Source of the DNA: Thermomicrobiales bacterium
GTDB lineage: Bacteria; Chloroflexota; Chloroflexia; Thermomicrobiales; UBA6265
Assembly: GCA_025928015.1 (NCBI GenBank)
Contig: JAICKJ010000006.1
Span: 1-34,660, forward strand
Length of the DNA: 34,660 bases
Direction of reading: 5' to 3'
In this document: in pieces, positions 18,989 through 26,919 of the stretch
How positions within the stretch are numbered: position 1 is the stretch's first letter
How the letters are laid out: each line of letters begins with the position of its first letter
The notes under the pieces: model-generated
Told to the model about the DNA's origin: nothing
Database searches by the model: none
Seen by the model: only the letters and a program-made list of their open reading frames with translations
Position numbers and translations under genes: made by a program

Positions 18989-19241
18989 ATGAAGGCAATG
19001 ACCTATGGCGAGTCCCGGGCCAAACTCGCAGGTACTCGACAGCGTCGTGGACGATTGCGAGGAAGTCGTGATCGTCCGAACCGGCAAGGCGCCAGTTGTC
19101 ATCGTCTCTCTCGCCGAATATGAATCCCTGAGGGAGATGGACTACCTGATGCGTAGTCCGGCGAATGCACAACACCTGTCGGATAGCATCGCGGCATTGG
19201 AGGCCGGCCGAGGGCAGCGGCACGACCTGATCGTGCCGTAA
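18989..19241 (+). pseudogene. YefM/Phd-family antitoxin, frameshifted
   Basis: ATG frame gives MKAMTYGESRAKLA; the +2 frame continues VLDSVVDDCEEVVIVRTGKAPVVIVSLAEYESLREMDYLMRSPANAQHLSDSIAALEAGRGQRHDLIVP; junction near 19030. Confidence 0.8.
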
Positions 19242-19285: not shown

Positions 19286-21745
19286 CTACGGTTGGTCCTC
19301 GCCGGCGGGGAGGAGGCCGAGCTGGATCGCGGCGGCGATGGCGGCGGTGCGGGAGTGGACGCCCAGCTTCGCCAGCAGGTTGGCGACGTGGACGTGGACC
19401 GTGCGGATGCTGATGTAGAGCGCCCCGGCGATCTCGCGATCGGTCTCGCCCTTCGCCAGATGCTCCAGGATCTCCTGCTGGCGTGACGTCAATGGCTCGC
19501 TGAGGCCCACGTCCATGGTGGCGGCGGGCGCCGAAGCCGGCGCCGCCTTCATCTCCGGCGCCATGGGGGCGATGGCGAGCGAGCAGGCCGTTTCGATCGC
19601 CAGCTCGAGGCCGCGCTGGTAGTTCTCCGCCCAGGTCTCTCCGGCCATCGCCACCGCGCGGTCGCGCGCGTCCCGCACCCGCGCCTCGTCGATGGCCGGC
19701 ACCGGCGCGCCGATCTGCTCCCGAATCGCCGCCGCCGCGCCGTAGAGCGTCGCCGCCCGACGCGGCGCGCCATGCAGCGTCGCCAGCTCGGCGTAGGCCT
19801 CCAGCGTCTCGGCGATGCCCTGCTTGTCGACCAGCGCGAAATAGCGCTCCTGCGCCGCCTCCAGATTGATCGCGGCCTCGGCGAGCTGCCCCCGGGCGAT
19901 CGCCAGCCAGCCGAGATTGGTGTAGGACCACGCGGCGCCGCGCGTCTCGCCGATCCGCTGATACTGGCGCAGCGCCTCCTGGTGGGCGTCGGCCGCCTGG
20001 TCCAGCTCGCCCATCGCCCAGTAGAGGTTGCCGAGATTGGTGATCGTCGCCGCCGCGCCGCGCGGGTCGCCCACCTCCCGGCACAGCTCGAGCGCCGGCT
20101 GGTAGAAATCGAGCGCCTCCTGGAGCTGGCCGAGCGCGATCGCCACGTCGCCGAGGCCGATCAGCGCAGTGGCCTCGACCCTGCGGTCGCGCGTGTTTGG
20201 GGCCATGGCAAGCGCTTCGTTGAAGCGCCGGCGGGCAGCCTCGGGCTTGTTCTGGACGCTCAGCAGGACGCCCGCGCCGACGAGCGCGTGGCCGCGGGTG
20301 GATGATGGCTCTGGCGCCGCGGCGAGTGCCTGGTCGAGCCAGTCGATGCACGCCTGGATGTCCCCTCGGGTGTAGCCGAAGCGCCAGATCGCCTTCGCCA
20401 GCCGCAGCGCGCCCGCCGCGCGGCCGTTCGCCAGCAACCAGGCGTGAGCGCGACGCAGATTGGCGCGTTCCGTCGCGATGTACTGGAGCCAGTCGGCCTG
20501 GTCCGGACCGATCAGGTAGGGCTCGGCCTCCTCCGCGAAGGCGACCGCCCAGGTGGCGTGCGCGGCCTCGAGCGCCGGCCACTCCTCGGCGGAGAGCCGT
20601 TCCAGGCCGAATTCGCGGATCGTCGCGAGCATGAAAAAGCGCCGGCCGCTGGTGTCGTCCGTCGACCGGATCAGGCTCTTGTCGGCCAGCGAGGAGATCG
20701 TCTCGATCAGCGAAAAGGGGACGGCGTCGATATCCAGGTAGCCGAGCGACGGCGTCTCGGTGAGGATGGCCGCGGCGGTCGTGAGCGTCCAGCCATTCTG
20801 GAAGACCGAGAGGCGGCGGAAGACGCGCCGTTCCTCGGCGCTGAGCAGGTCGTAGCTCCACTGGAGCGCGTTCCGCATCGTCTGCAAGCGCTCCGGCATG
20901 TCCTTCGCGCCGCCGGAGAGGAGGGGCAGTCGCTGCTCCAGCCGCTGGGCGAGCGCGTTGGGCGGCAGCACCTTGACCCGGGCGGCGGCCAGCTCGATCG
21001 CCAGCGGCAGGCCGTCCAGCCGCTGGCAGATGGTCGCCACCGAGGTCGCGTTCGCCGTGGTGAGGCGGAAGTCGATCCGGGCCGCCTGAGCCCGGGCGAC
21101 GAAGAGCCGCACTGCCGGCGAGTCCGATATATCTACCGTTTCGACGCGGCGCCATTCGGGCGCTTGCGGCGTGAACGGCACGACGAGCGGACGCACATGG
21201 TAGACCGTCTCGCCGGAGATGCCGGGCAGCGCGCGGCTGGTGATCATCATCTTGAGCAGCGGGCAAGCGATCAGCAATGTCGCGACCGCGGGCGCGGCAT
21301 CGAGCACCTGCTCGAAGTTGTCGAGCACCAGCAATGAAGGGCCCTCGCGCAGGGTGCCCACGGTCGCGTCGTACGCGAGCGGACCGCCCGGGTCGTTGAT
21401 TCCCAGCCGCTCGGCGATCGCGGTCAGCACCTGCGCCGGCTCGGTCAACATCGCCAGCGGGACGTAGAAGACCCGGCCGTTGAGCCGCGCCACCATCTCG
21501 TGCGCGACCTGGATGGCGAGGCGTGTCTTGCCTACGCCGCCCGGTCCGGTCAGCACCATCAGGCGGTCATCGTCACGTTCCAGCATGGTCAGGAGGTCAG
21601 TCAGCTCCCGCTCGCGGCCGATGAGCGAGGCGACAACCGCCGGCAGGTGGCCACCTGCCACGGCGCCCGCCTGCGTCACAGTTGGGCCGAGGGGATTGGC
21701 GTTCGCGTTGTATTGGGCGTTGGACATGCACCTGACCTGCGACAT
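19286..21745 (-). CDS. AAA/NB-ARC-like ATPase with TPR-like region and C-terminal LuxR HTH (paralog of 15816-18167)
   Basis: 819 aa (alternative ATG at 21727); SLIGRERELTDLLTMLERDDDRLMVLTGPGGVGKTRLAIQVAHE; C-term LTSRQQEILEHLAKGETDREIAGALYISIRTVHVHVANLLAKLGVHSR. Confidence 0.93.
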   Translation of the reverse strand: MSQVRCMSNAQYNANANPLGPTVTQAGAVAGGHLPAVVASLIGRERELTDLLTMLERDDDRLMVLTGPGGVGKTRLAIQVAHEMVARLNGRVFYVPLAMLTEPAQVLTAIAERLGINDPGGPLAYDATVGTLREGPSLLVLDNFEQVLDAAPAVATLLIACPLLKMMITSRALPGISGETVYHVRPLVVPFTPQAPEWRRVETVDISDSPAVRLFVARAQAARIDFRLTTANATSVATICQRLDGLPLAIELAAARVKVLPPNALAQRLEQRLPLLSGGAKDMPERLQTMRNALQWSYDLLSAEERRVFRRLSVFQNGWTLTTAAAILTETPSLGYLDIDAVPFSLIETISSLADKSLIRSTDDTSGRRFFMLATIREFGLERLSAEEWPALEAAHATWAVAFAEEAEPYLIGPDQADWLQYIATERANLRRAHAWLLANGRAAGALRLAKAIWRFGYTRGDIQACIDWLDQALAAAPEPSSTRGHALVGAGVLLSVQNKPEAARRRFNEALAMAPNTRDRRVEATALIGLGDVAIALGQLQEALDFYQPALELCREVGDPRGAAATITNLGNLYWAMGELDQAADAHQEALRQYQRIGETRGAAWSYTNLGWLAIARGQLAEAAINLEAAQERYFALVDKQGIAETLEAYAELATLHGAPRRAATLYGAAAAIREQIGAPVPAIDEARVRDARDRAVAMAGETWAENYQRGLELAIETACSLAIAPMAPEMKAAPASAPAATMDVGLSEPLTSRQQEILEHLAKGETDREIAGALYISIRTVHVHVANLLAKLGVHSRTAAIAAAIQLGLLPAGEDQP

Positions 21746-21807: not shown

Positions 21808-21974
21808 CGCGCCCCGCGTTTCGCTCATTACAACGCCCCGCGCGCGACATTCGGGTACACGGCGCGTCCGCGTGTAAAGCAGTTGGCAGCGGCCGGGCGC
21901 GGCATGGTGTGAACTTGTGCTGCGCGCGCCTGATCCGTCGCACGATCAAAGACAAGAACGAAGAAAGGACACCG

Positions 21975-22256
21975 ATGAGCGATCTGACCACACTGCCCGA
22001 CGACATCCGCAAGAAGATCGTCGATATCAACACTCGCGCCAACCAGGACGACGAGTTCCGCCAGCGTCTGAGCGAGGACCCGATGGGCACGCTTTCCGCC
22101 GCCGGCCTGCCGACCGACGCGGCGCAGACGGTGATCGACTTCGAGCCAGCGCAGGCGCAGGGCGAGGTCGAGGGCTACATGCGGTGCGTCGATGGCACCT
22201 GCTGGGACATCACCTATTCGAGCATCTGCCCCGGCAGCTGCTGGATCACCTTCTGA
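21975..22256 (+). CDS. Candidate RiPP precursor peptide with NHLP-like leader and Cys/Trp-rich C-terminal core
   Basis: 93 aa MSDLTTLPDDIRKKIVDINTRANQDDEFRQRLSEDPMGTLSAAGLPTDAAQTVIDFEPAQAQGEVEGYMRCVDGTCWDITYSSICPGSCWITF; SD AAGAAAGGA; followed by a perfect hairpin. Confidence 0.65.
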   Translation: MSDLTTLPDDIRKKIVDINTRANQDDEFRQRLSEDPMGTLSAAGLPTDAAQTVIDFEPAQAQGEVEGYMRCVDGTCWDITYSSICPGSCWITF

Positions 22257-22309: not shown

Positions 22310-22337
22310 CCGCCCGGATCCTGCAGGATCCGGGCGG
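22310..22337 (+). terminator. Perfect 28-bp palindromic hairpin downstream of the small peptide gene
   Basis: CCGCCCGGATCCTGCAGGATCCGGGCGG; no T-tract. Confidence 0.65.
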
Positions 22338-22526: not shown

Positions 22527-23072
22527 ATGTCACGCTACCGCCTCACATCCTCCGTGGTTCTCTTCGTCGTCATGCTGCTCGCGCTCTGGTCAGGCGGCGT
22601 GCCACGCGCCGGCGCCCAGACGCAGATGATCGATCTCACGATCGCCAAGTTCAACTGTCAGACCGATCCCGGTCAGATCAGCCTCGCCAAGGGCAATATC
22701 CCCGCCGATTGCGCGTCCGGCGCGAACGTCACCTTCAACGTGACGTTGACGTCCGATGGGTCGAGCCTCGGCTCGTGCACGACCAACGCCAACGGCATCT
22801 GCAAGGTCTCCGTGCCCAATGAAGCCAATGTGACCGTGACGGAGGATACCTCGACCGGACCCACTGGCTACGCGCCGCGTGACAACCCGATCCAGACGCA
22901 AGCTGTCACCGAATTCGCCAGTGCCGTCTTCGTCAACCTGCCGACCACGCTCCCGACTACGGGCGCGGGCACCGCTTCGACCAGCCTCAGTCCACTGGGG
23001 ACGGGCGCACTGTTGCTCGGTGCCGCCGCGCTCCTGCTCGCCGCGCTCGGGGTGCGGCGCCGCATGTCTTGA
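22527..23072 (+). CDS. Secreted surface protein with LPXTG-like sorting signal
   Basis: 181 aa; signal peptide MSRYRLTSSVVLFVVMLLALWSGGVPRAGAQ; C-term LPTTGAGTASTSLSPLGTGALLLGAAALLLAALGVRRRMS; SD GGGAGG. Confidence 0.8.
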   Translation: MSRYRLTSSVVLFVVMLLALWSGGVPRAGAQTQMIDLTIAKFNCQTDPGQISLAKGNIPADCASGANVTFNVTLTSDGSSLGSCTTNANGICKVSVPNEANVTVTEDTSTGPTGYAPRDNPIQTQAVTEFASAVFVNLPTTLPTTGAGTASTSLSPLGTGALLLGAAALLLAALGVRRRMS

Positions 23073-23087
23073 TGACCGTCGCCCGGC

Positions 23088-24569
23088 TCAGGCGGTGCTC
23101 CCGAAGAGGCGGACGTCGAAGGTTGGGTCGGGCATGGCGGGGTCGAGCGGGTAGACCGGGCGCTGGACGCGGTGGAAGGGCAGGCTCGGGATGTCCTGGT
23201 TGACCGCGCCGGGGGTCAGCGCCAGGAAGGCGGCCGAGGCGGCCTCGCGCAGCTCCGGCTCCAGATAGCCGATCTTGACGACCGTCACGTCGTGCGCCGC
23301 CGGGTCCAGGTTCACGTTCCTGAATTCCTGAATGTGGTGGTACGGCTTGCGGCGTGACGGGATGATGACATGGACGCCGCCACGCATGACGACGGCGATG
23401 TCGCCGCCGACCGGATCGGCTGGGTAGAGCGCGTAGACGACGCCGCTGAGCGCGAACGGCGTGCCGTTGACCGGGTCGAGCACGCCGCCGATCGTCACGT
23501 CGACCGGCGCGCCCACACCGGCCGCCTGGCACGCCGCGACGGCGGTCGGGCTGGCGACGGCGGCGACGATCGCCGTCTTCTCGCCTGACGCGAAGGCGGG
23601 GTGCGCCAGCAGCCGCTCGGTCATGTAGGGCATGTCACCGGCGCCGCCGGCCGTCGGGTTGTCGCCGGAATCGCTGATGAAGACGGCCTTCTGGCCCAGC
23701 TTCGCCGCCTCGTCGATGCACCAGTCGGCCGGCCCGGCGGTGGCGATGAAGCCGAAGTTGTTCCGGGCATCCCAGTAGCGCCGCGCGATCTTCGCCGCCT
23801 CGCCCGTGATCGCCTCCGCGTCGGTGCCGGAGACGACGACCGTCGCGCTGGCGCGGGGCTGATCGGCCCAGACGTAGCCGACCCAGAGCGAGGCGTCGAA
23901 CACGCCGGGCACGACGTCGGATTCGGCCAGCTTCGCGTAGACGGTGTGTCCCGGCTCGACGAAGGTGCTGGTCCGCTCGCCGGGCAGGATGACCGGGATG
24001 CGGATCCACGCCCGCAGCGGCCGGATGCCCTCATCGAGACAACGCAGCAGGTGGCGTAGCCCGCGCTCTTTCGTCTCCATCGCGTCGACGTGTGGCGCCT
24101 GCCGGTAGCAGGTGAAGATATCGACCGCCTCGACGAGCGCCGGCGAGATGTTGCCATGCAGATCCATGCCGGCGGAGATGACGCATGCCGGGCCGACCAG
24201 CGCGCGGATCGCCGTCGCCAGATCGCCTTCGGCGTCGTCCATGCCGAGCACGCTCATCGCGCCGTGGACGTCGAAGTAGAAGCCGTCGAGCGGCAGCGAC
24301 GCCCGCACCCGGTCGAGCAGCTCGGTTTTCAGCGTCTGGTAGGTCTCGGCGGTCACCTGTCCGCCGGGCAGCGAGCGCGCCTGGAGGGCGGGCAGCCAGT
24401 CGATATCATCTCGCCCGTCGCGCAGCACCGCCTGGACGTAAGGAAGCTCGAGCAGCTCCTCTCCCCGTCGCACGTGGAAGTCATCCAGCGTGCTGTAGAG
24501 CGGCGAGAAGGTGCTGCTCTCGATCGATATCCCGCCGTGCCCGATCCGGAACCGTTTCTGCGCTGCCAT
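23088..24569 (-). CDS. M81 family metallopeptidase (microcystinase C/MlrC-like)
   Basis: 493 aa from MAAQKRFRIGHGGISIESSTFSPL; DGFYFDVHGAMSVLGMDDAEGDL, GMDLHGNISPALVEAVDIFTCYRQAPHVDAMETKERG, SDSGDNPTAGGAGD. Confidence 0.92.
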   Translation of the reverse strand: MAAQKRFRIGHGGISIESSTFSPLYSTLDDFHVRRGEELLELPYVQAVLRDGRDDIDWLPALQARSLPGGQVTAETYQTLKTELLDRVRASLPLDGFYFDVHGAMSVLGMDDAEGDLATAIRALVGPACVISAGMDLHGNISPALVEAVDIFTCYRQAPHVDAMETKERGLRHLLRCLDEGIRPLRAWIRIPVILPGERTSTFVEPGHTVYAKLAESDVVPGVFDASLWVGYVWADQPRASATVVVSGTDAEAITGEAAKIARRYWDARNNFGFIATAGPADWCIDEAAKLGQKAVFISDSGDNPTAGGAGDMPYMTERLLAHPAFASGEKTAIVAAVASPTAVAACQAAGVGAPVDVTIGGVLDPVNGTPFALSGVVYALYPADPVGGDIAVVMRGGVHVIIPSRRKPYHHIQEFRNVNLDPAAHDVTVVKIGYLEPELREAASAAFLALTPGAVNQDIPSLPFHRVQRPVYPLDPAMPDPTFDVRLFGSTA

Positions 24570-24719
24570 GCCTTGTCCCTTGATCACGAACATGTCCACT
24601 GTCGCCGGGTGACGATAGCAACGCGCGCCCCGATGCACAACAGGCGTCCGGCCGATGCCGCGCTCGCTGCCCGGTCCGTTGGGGGAAGAACCCCACCGTC
24701 CGATCTCCCGATAACCCGC

Positions 24720-24752
24720 TCTTAGAAGAATCTTAGAAAGCGAGATAATAAT
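24720..24752 (+). promoter_or_regulatory. Period-11 direct repeat plus A/T-rich -10-like element upstream of the MMPL operon
   Basis: TCTTAGAA at 24720-24727 and 24731-24738 (11-bp spacing); GATAATAAT at 24744-24752. Confidence 0.55.
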
Positions 24753-24804
24753 CGTGGGGATGGCGAAGACCAGTTCGCCTGCGATAAGGAGATGGATATC
24801 CACC

Positions 24805-26919
24805 ATGAGTACGGGCGCGATTGCACGATTCGTTCTGAAGCACAAGCTGCTGGTGGTGGTTGCCTGGGTAGTCGTCGCGGCGATCAGCTTCGGGTTGGTC
24901 TCGACGGTGACGAGCGGCCTTTCCCACCAGTTCACCTTGCCCGGCAAGGAAGGCGCGGAGATCTCCGGCCAGGTCCAGGGGCGCTATGGGGTCGGCGGCT
25001 TCAACGACCCGGTCATCGCCGTCGTGACCTTGCCCGAAGGCACGACGGTTGATTCGCCGGGGATCAAGGCGCAATTGACCACGGCGTTTGACCGGATCAC
25101 GAAGAGCTCGCCGCAGACCCGCGTCGCGTCATACGCGTCCACCGGGGACCGGGCATTCGTGTCCACGGATGGGCGGACCACCTTTGCCCTCGCCTACCTG
25201 CCCAGCGACGAGACCGGGCTGATCGATCTGCCGGCGGTCAAGGAGGCGATGACGGGCGTGACGGTGGCCGGCGCGCCGGTGCTGCTGACCGGACGGCCGG
25301 TCCTGGCGACGGAGTCCTCCTCCGGCGGCGCGGGCGTGCTGGTCGAGCTGCTGATCGGCGGCGGCGGCGCCTTGCTGGTGCTCGCCTACATCTTCGGCTC
25401 GTTCCTCGCCCTGCTGCCGATCCTGATGGCCATCGTCGCCATCCCGACGACCTTCCTGCTCATCGGCGGCGTGAATCAGCTCACGGACGTCAACTTCATC
25501 GTCCAATTCCTGATCGCGCTCATCGGCCTCGGCGTCGCGATCGATTACGCGCTGCTGGTCGTCACCCGCTGGCGCGAGGAACGGGCCGCCGGACGGCCGA
25601 ACGAGGCGGCCGTGCAGCGGGCGATGGAGACGGCCGGGCACGCGGTCGTCTTCAGCGGCACGACGGTCAGCATCGGCCTGCTCGCGCTGGTGGTGCTGCC
25701 TGTTCCGTTCATGCGCAGCGTCGGCTACGCCGGCATGCTCATCCCGCTGGTAAGCGTCGTCGTCACGCTCACGCTCCTGCCGGTCATCCTCGCCACCATT
25801 GGCCCGAAGCTCGACTGGCCACGCGGCCGCTCCGGTCACCAATCGCATCCCGGCTGGCACGCCTGGGCGACGGTGGTCGTCCGGCACCGGATCGCGGCGA
25901 CGGTGGTTGCGCTGGTCGTCCTCGGCGCATTGCTCGTGCCGGCCTTCGGGATCACGGTCGGCGATCCCCGGCCCGATGCGCTCAACGGCAGCGGCGCGGC
26001 GCAGCAAGGACTGGTTGCCCTGCAGGACGCGGGCATCCCGGGCGGGGCGATGAGCCCCTTCCAGGTGCTGGTGCAGGGTGGCGACGCGCACGCGGTCGCC
26101 ACGGCGCTGGACAGAGTCAACGGGCTGCGTGGGGCGGTGGCGCCGGCGGGCGCCGGCTGGTCACAGGGCGGTTCATCGCTCGTCATCGCGCTGCCCGACA
26201 CGGATGGGAGCAGCCAGGCCGCCATGACGGTGCTCGACCGCGTGCGCGATGTCGCGCACGCCCAACCGGGCCAGGTCGGCGTCGGCGGACCCGCGGCCTT
26301 CAACGCGGATTTCACGGATGCGGTCTATGGCAGCTTCCCGCTCATGGTTGGGCTGATCGCGCTGGTGACCTACATCCTGCTGGTGCGGGCCTTCCGCTCG
26401 CTCGTCCTGCCCCTCAAGGCGCTGGCGCTCAACGTCCTCTCGGTCGGCGCGGCCTACGGTGTCCTGGTGCTGATCTGGCAGCACGGCTACGGCTCCGAGG
26501 CGATCTGGGGCATCCCGGCGACGGGCGCCATCACGAGCTGGGTGCCGCTGATGGTCTTCGCCTTCCTCTTCGGCCTCTCGATGGACTACGAGGTCTTCAT
26601 CCTCGCCCGGATGCGGGAGGAGTACGACGCGACCGGCTCGACCGACCGGGCGATCGTCGGCGGACTCTCGCTGACGGGCCGGCTGGTGACCTGCGCGGCC
26701 CTGATTCTCTTCCTCTCCTTCACCGGCATGGCGTCCGGGCCGCAGACGGAGATCAAGATGCTGGCGACGGGCCTGGCGGCGGGCATTATCCTCGACGCGA
26801 CAGTCGTGCGGGCGCTGCTGGTGCCGGCATTGATCTCGCTGATGGGACACTGGAACTGGTGGCTGCCGGGCTGGCTGGAGCGGGTGGTGCCACATCCCGA
26901 GTCCCGCGCCACCGCCTGA
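24805..26919 (+). CDS. MMPL family (RND-like) transporter
   Basis: 704 aa from MSTGAIARFVLKHKLLVVVAWVVV; two TM clusters; IALIGLGVAIDYALLVVTRWREERAAG and FLFGLSMDYEVFILARMREEYDATG. Confidence 0.93.
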   Translation: MSTGAIARFVLKHKLLVVVAWVVVAAISFGLVSTVTSGLSHQFTLPGKEGAEISGQVQGRYGVGGFNDPVIAVVTLPEGTTVDSPGIKAQLTTAFDRITKSSPQTRVASYASTGDRAFVSTDGRTTFALAYLPSDETGLIDLPAVKEAMTGVTVAGAPVLLTGRPVLATESSSGGAGVLVELLIGGGGALLVLAYIFGSFLALLPILMAIVAIPTTFLLIGGVNQLTDVNFIVQFLIALIGLGVAIDYALLVVTRWREERAAGRPNEAAVQRAMETAGHAVVFSGTTVSIGLLALVVLPVPFMRSVGYAGMLIPLVSVVVTLTLLPVILATIGPKLDWPRGRSGHQSHPGWHAWATVVVRHRIAATVVALVVLGALLVPAFGITVGDPRPDALNGSGAAQQGLVALQDAGIPGGAMSPFQVLVQGGDAHAVATALDRVNGLRGAVAPAGAGWSQGGSSLVIALPDTDGSSQAAMTVLDRVRDVAHAQPGQVGVGGPAAFNADFTDAVYGSFPLMVGLIALVTYILLVRAFRSLVLPLKALALNVLSVGAAYGVLVLIWQHGYGSEAIWGIPATGAITSWVPLMVFAFLFGLSMDYEVFILARMREEYDATGSTDRAIVGGLSLTGRLVTCAALILFLSFTGMASGPQTEIKMLATGLAAGIILDATVVRALLVPALISLMGHWNWWLPGWLERVVPHPESRATA

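Follow-up and report, generated by a model that had tools for sequence, protein, structure and literature searches.

The window, that is, the whole stretch of 34,660 nucleotides analyzed here, carries on its forward strand a short gene for a putative precursor peptide, located between a divergent regulator and a palindrome. The features of this region are the following:

19286..21745, minus strand: divergent NB-ARC/TPR/LuxR (STAND-type) regulator
21961..21969, plus strand: Shine-Dalgarno-like AAGAAAGGA, 5 nt before the precursor ATG, read directly
21975..22256, plus strand: putative precursor peptide gene, 93 aa plus stop, assigned from its translation, paralogues, and relatives beside LanL
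21975..22175, plus strand: predicted precursor leader, residues 1-67, with the conserved D..F...L..DP...L...G pattern and without Cys
22164..22178, plus strand: EVEGY boundary motif, residues 64-68, probable leader-removal region
22176..22253, plus strand: predicted core YMRCVDGTCWDITYSSICPGSCWITF, 26 residues, with Cys 71, 76, 85, and 89 and Ser/Thr 75, 80, 82, 83, 88, and 92
22310..22337, no strand: perfect 28-bp palindrome CCGCCCGGATCCTG/CAGGATCCGGGCGG, between the precursor gene and the next gene

The translation of the gene agrees exactly with what an earlier sequence-only reading had described, namely a 93-residue open reading frame with a good Shine-Dalgarno sequence and a charged N-terminal half, and the EVEG, CVDGTCWDIT, and CPGSCWIT stretches that it had singled out are all found. 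The core combines four Cys with six Ser/Thr, all four Cys of the peptide being located in its last 27 residues, an arrangement with a chance of about 0.006 under random placement. AlphaFold gave a poor model for the single precursor sequence (pLDDT 49, pTM 0.20), where the sole helix spans residues 9-34.

Regarding the neighborhood, the LuxR-type regulator previously noted as divergent corresponds to the NB-ARC/TPR/LuxR gene, 229 bp away from the precursor gene, of which it is a possible controller. Because about 28 relatives of this regulator are present in the host genome, its adjacency is weak evidence for a cluster and was dropped as such. Also, the strong hairpin said to isolate the gene corresponds to the perfect palindrome that follows it, with a fold z-score of -3.7 for this stretch; it lacks a clean T-tract and was not found in the other loci compared. 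A Phd/YefM antitoxin gene (19005-19241, plus strand) is located between two regulators. On the other side, 22527-23072 (plus strand) encodes a probable secreted protein without Pfam match, which starts like a signal peptide and finishes with an LPTTG-like tail and a hydrophobic end, and 23088-24947 (minus strand), two genes downstream of the precursor, encodes an M81/MlrC-type metallopeptidase.

The host genome as assembled (3.94 Mb in 400 contigs, 76.5% complete) contains four paralogues of the precursor with identities of 40-57% (best E = 3.5e-33), being 57% for the one on contig C351, 45% for two on C138, and 43% for the one on C286, at a contig end. A weak match on C55 lies antisense inside a LanM gene and was discarded as chance. 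The C351 paralogue aligns with the window gene along 93 codons without indel, with 38/67 identical residues in the leader and 15/26 in the core, where the four Cys are kept; among the six Ser/Thr of the window peptide, three are identical, two show S/T exchanges (S88/T and T92/S), and one is lost. This pattern would keep the residues needed for lanthionine chemistry. Moreover, the four paralogues and the gap-free alignment place the reality of the open reading frame well beyond chance.

The main rival explanation is that the gene, a duplicate derived from the C351 cluster, is decaying or silent, so that its modified product is no longer made. The dN/dS between both genes is 0.75 overall, 0.63 for the leader, and 1.37 for the core, the last calculated over few sites and all of them in a gene too short to decide on selection; since the overall value falls short of supporting strong purifying selection, a young, relaxing duplicate is possible. 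This explanation is also favored by a core value above 1, by the unlinked position of the gene, by a scan for sigma-70-like promoters where none was found for it, and by an unlinked precursor copy in another genome (G368) that is frame-broken. However, the window gene maintains an intact frame and a good Shine-Dalgarno sequence, all the Cys and nearly all the Ser/Thr are conserved by identity or S/T exchange, and the promoter scan covered one promoter type. We consider decay, then, an unlikely explanation.

The C351 paralogue is located directly upstream of a LanL of 921 aa, and the first C138 paralogue directly upstream of another of 942 aa, these being the only LanLs in the genome as assembled; the C286 contig ends at its paralogue. 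Both synthetases exceed the curated cut-off of the LanL model NF038150 (703 bits for C351 and 675 bits for C138, cut-off 650) and score much lower with the class III model. Their RamC_N, kinase, and LANC_like domains contain the GWKLHVSA, RDLKSxN, DFE, WCHG, and QCHG motifs expected for a lyase, a kinase, and a zinc-type cyclase, and the zinc-ligand motifs WCHG and QCHG, a trait lacking in class III, are found in both LanC domains. Besides LanL, the C138 locus encodes a second precursor, a GAF protein, and an S8 protease whose triad is intact (DSG, HGT, and GNSFAAPH) and which is unlinked to the window gene; it also includes the first part of an ABC exporter. A position beside the synthetase, the usual although not strictly defining criterion for a precursor, is observed for the C351 and C138 paralogues but not for the window gene, around which no synthetase is present within 22 kb upstream and 12 kb downstream. 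With respect to LanL, YcaO, and LanC-type domains, whose matches across the genome are all on other contigs, this agrees with the earlier statement that the window lacks a maturase. Thus, the proposal of an orphan precursor served by a distant enzyme stands with respect to an enzyme encoded elsewhere, whereas the gene is no lone orphan, being one of five related genes.

Other RiPP enzymes of this genome are LanM, on C55 and C205, and a YcaO/SagB azole system on C323. In the first case (G000 C55, L053:2271-6695), the LanM gene (808 bits) directly follows a cytochrome P450, and no precursor was recognized. The contigs C323 (L074) and C205 (L076) of G000 have a common end and jointly encode a LanM-like protein, a SagB dehydrogenase, a YcaO/SagD-type cyclodehydratase that carries a fused leader-binding domain, and a PoyD-like radical SAM epimerase with an N-terminal match to the Os1348 NHLP clan (34.6 bits, cut-off 40), which would correspond to a possible hybrid azole/epimerase/lanthionine cluster.

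A profile built from four precursors was searched against 400 genomes of the phylum, taking E<=1e-6 as a strong match. Strong matches are observed in six of them, host included, and all six carry LanL, as compared with a near-full-length LanL in 13/400 overall, although these genomes are related and the counts are not independent. A broader profile added G109 and G225, both with LanL beside the precursor, and gave weaker matches in G381, G274, and G204, which are without LanL. Precursor relatives adjoin LanL in G368 (two loci), G417, G361, G334, G250, G109, and G225, and relatives are found in three other bacterial families. GAF relatives (39-51% identity) and S8 relatives (56-74%) accompany most of these precursor/LanL loci. 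Moreover, when 15 LanLs of the phylum were placed in a tree, the ten accompanied by the leader were set apart from the rest by a branch with a support of 100/100; the other five, from G082, G083, G350, G309, and G285, lack a recognizable relative of the leader as well as nearby relatives of GAF or S8. The precursor family is firmly supported. Its relatives came from the whole-genome searches; no homologue is present in the 100 nearest genomes, which speaks against the reading favored below, and no relative was confirmed by scans of contig collections with the peptide or with the LanL pair. Also recurring beside LanL clusters in different genomes is another precursor subtype, with the core C-A-N-[TS]-C-A-L-[TS] (L055:7971-8414, L056:19057-19326, and L058:7941-8294).

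Among NCBIfam families, the leader matches best NF038399, the Os1348 NHLP clan (E=1.4e-4, 21.9 bits, cut-off 40, residues 21-46), followed by TIGR04509 (E=1.3e-3, below cut-off) and the NHLP family TIGR03793 (E=2e-3, 18.0 bits, cut-off 50.9). Since all these matches are below the curated cut-offs, the leader is kin to the NHLP/Os1348 clan without being a member. The NHLP-like leader of the sequence-only reading is thus retained as an NHLP-related, RiPP-type precursor but not as a strict NHLP member. True NHLP precursors, above the family cut-off, are encoded separately on C193 (L016:7568-8737) and C59 (L017:9551-9940) of G000; three of them in tandem end in C-x-A-C-x-x-G-V-R-G, and one ends in VGGVRG. 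An NHLP-like precursor under the cut-off and without a Cys core is found on C85 (L018:2533-2799). NHLP leaders have been described alongside LanM and azole enzymes (PMC2887384), and a genome survey lists them for class II families (PMC7268733). Given that such enzymes are present in this genome, the window peptide could be modified by LanM (C55 or C205) or by the azole system of C323, as is usual for these leaders. Nonetheless, its leader is far under the NHLP cut-off, close relatives adjoin LanL in each strong-match genome examined, and LanM and the azole system could act instead on the true NHLP peptides of C193 and C59, which makes this alternative very improbable.

A leader-core boundary of the type [DE]-V-x-[G/A]-[YF] is present in 29/30 family members, and in these 29 the Cys are concentrated in the core (64/592 residues, as compared with 9/1922 in the leader). 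The four Cys of the window peptide, in two similar blocks, would also fit a disulfide-bonded or metal-binding small peptide unmodified by any RiPP enzyme. However, across the family the core varies in length and in Cys number (from 1 to 5), always with Cys and Ser/Thr present, whereas the leader and the linkage to LanL are constant, a behavior that is RiPP-like and unlike that of a folded Cys-rich protein, so that this explanation is hardly to be expected. Similarly, the suggestion of a new class of small Cys-rich peptide gives way to a known one, the relevant enzyme being LanL (class IV).

The boundary also bears on leader removal. According to a review, in class III lanthipeptides the S8 proteases (AmyP) have (T/S/A)EVE as their site of action, whereas in the known class IV systems an M1-type protease (SflL) removes the leader, S9 POPs being also implicated (PMC10885120). 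The paralogues show AEVE and SEVE, and the window peptide GEVE; because of this resemblance, the S8 protease is the likely leader peptidase by analogy. A Gly-Gly type leader end, as for a C39 transporter, is absent from the window leader, which ends in EVEG-Y. A C39-type peptide exporter on C368 (L077:6412-8227) and C75 (L075:2-2230) of G000 has close to it two small ORFs whose ends are double-Gly-like; as processing enzyme, the C39 exporter is less likely, the boundary not being Gly-Gly.

The reading that we favor, with a probability of about 0.78, is that the window ORF is a class IV lanthipeptide precursor (LanA) that has no synthetase within 12 kb and is modified in trans. As a nearby synthetase is lacking, we infer from paralogy both the pairing of the peptide with LanL and the action in trans that the unlinked position would imply. 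In this sequence of events, a LanL from another contig would recognize the NHLP/Os1348-related leader (residues 1 to about 67), that of C351 being the most likely partner because it adjoins the closest paralogue, and that of C138 the alternative. Then, LanL would phosphorylate Ser/Thr of the core and eliminate the phosphate to give dehydro-residues, to which the Cys thiols would add, generating up to four (methyl)lanthionine rings. Phosphorylation, elimination, and cyclization are established chemistry for LanL enzymes in general. The adjacent Thr-Cys and Ser-Cys leave the ring pattern undictated. Finally, the S8 protease of the C138 LanL locus would cut the leader near E-V-E-G-Y, and an ABC or MFS transporter would export the product. 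More tentatively, a class IV lineage might have taken over an NHLP-type leader and work as a combinatorial system, where one or two LanLs and a shared S8 protease would process several precursors, distant ones among them, with production tied to a signal through the GAF protein and STAND regulators.

The sequence-only reading had named three outcomes against itself: a C-terminal Cys block not conserved or a broken frame in homologues, no similarity to leader models, and no RiPP maturase in the genome. None of them is observed: the Cys block is conserved and the frame intact in the C351 alignment, the three leader models give the matches described above, and the genome encodes two LanL, two LanM, and one YcaO.

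Neither class IV lanthipeptides nor NHLP leaders are new. The class IV members characterized to date have been found in Actinomycetota and in one deltaproteobacterium (PMC9576775), and the text of a Ktedonobacteria survey reports lantipeptide clusters without mention of LanL (PMC6497799). Within the literature covered, supplements and subscription papers being outside its scope, no prior description was found of class IV in combination with NHLP leaders, with GAF, or with Chloroflexi, nor of a LanL with an NHLP-related leader and the GAF and S8 set.

Compared with the class IV systems of venezuelin, SflA, and streptocollin, the group described here has a synthetase of the same architecture, with lyase, kinase, and zinc-type LanC, that scores above the equivalog cut-off for LanL, and its cores are rich in Cys and Ser/Thr. 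However, it differs in the NHLP/Os1348-related leader, in the S8 protease and GAF protein beside LanL, and in having several precursors per synthetase, one of them unlinked. Class III systems with AmyP-type proteases also include an S8 protease in the cluster, and the paralogues here show AEVE and SEVE and the window peptide GEVE; in the present group, however, the synthetase is of class IV and the cleavage site is putative. In prochlorosin-type class II systems, one synthetase likewise serves precursors encoded elsewhere, but with a Nif11 leader, LanM, and much larger precursor numbers. Unlinked precursors were also noted in a genome survey (PMC7268733). With the NHLP family TIGR03793, the window family shares the leader pattern, many paralogues, and enzymes away from the precursor, and it differs in its low score, a leader of about 67 residues, the lack of a Gly-Gly end, and the link to LanL instead of LanM or azole enzymes. 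The Os1348 clan of Pseudomonas sp. Os17 is the best family match, although below its cut-off, and the reported neighbors of Os1348 are an acetyltransferase and a HEXXH protein, with no lanthipeptide enzyme mentioned (PMC7726476).

Few class IV lanthipeptides have been characterized so far, and little RiPP chemistry has been done in the host phylum, probably Chloroflexota judging from the character of the genome. The group extends this class with a leader of another type, an S8 protease that is probably dedicated, and a GAF partner that is conserved, and it makes testable whether an NHLP-type leader can guide LanL and whether LanL acts on substrates encoded elsewhere. Then, the window gene and its kin most likely represent a branch, so far little described, of an already known class of peptides.
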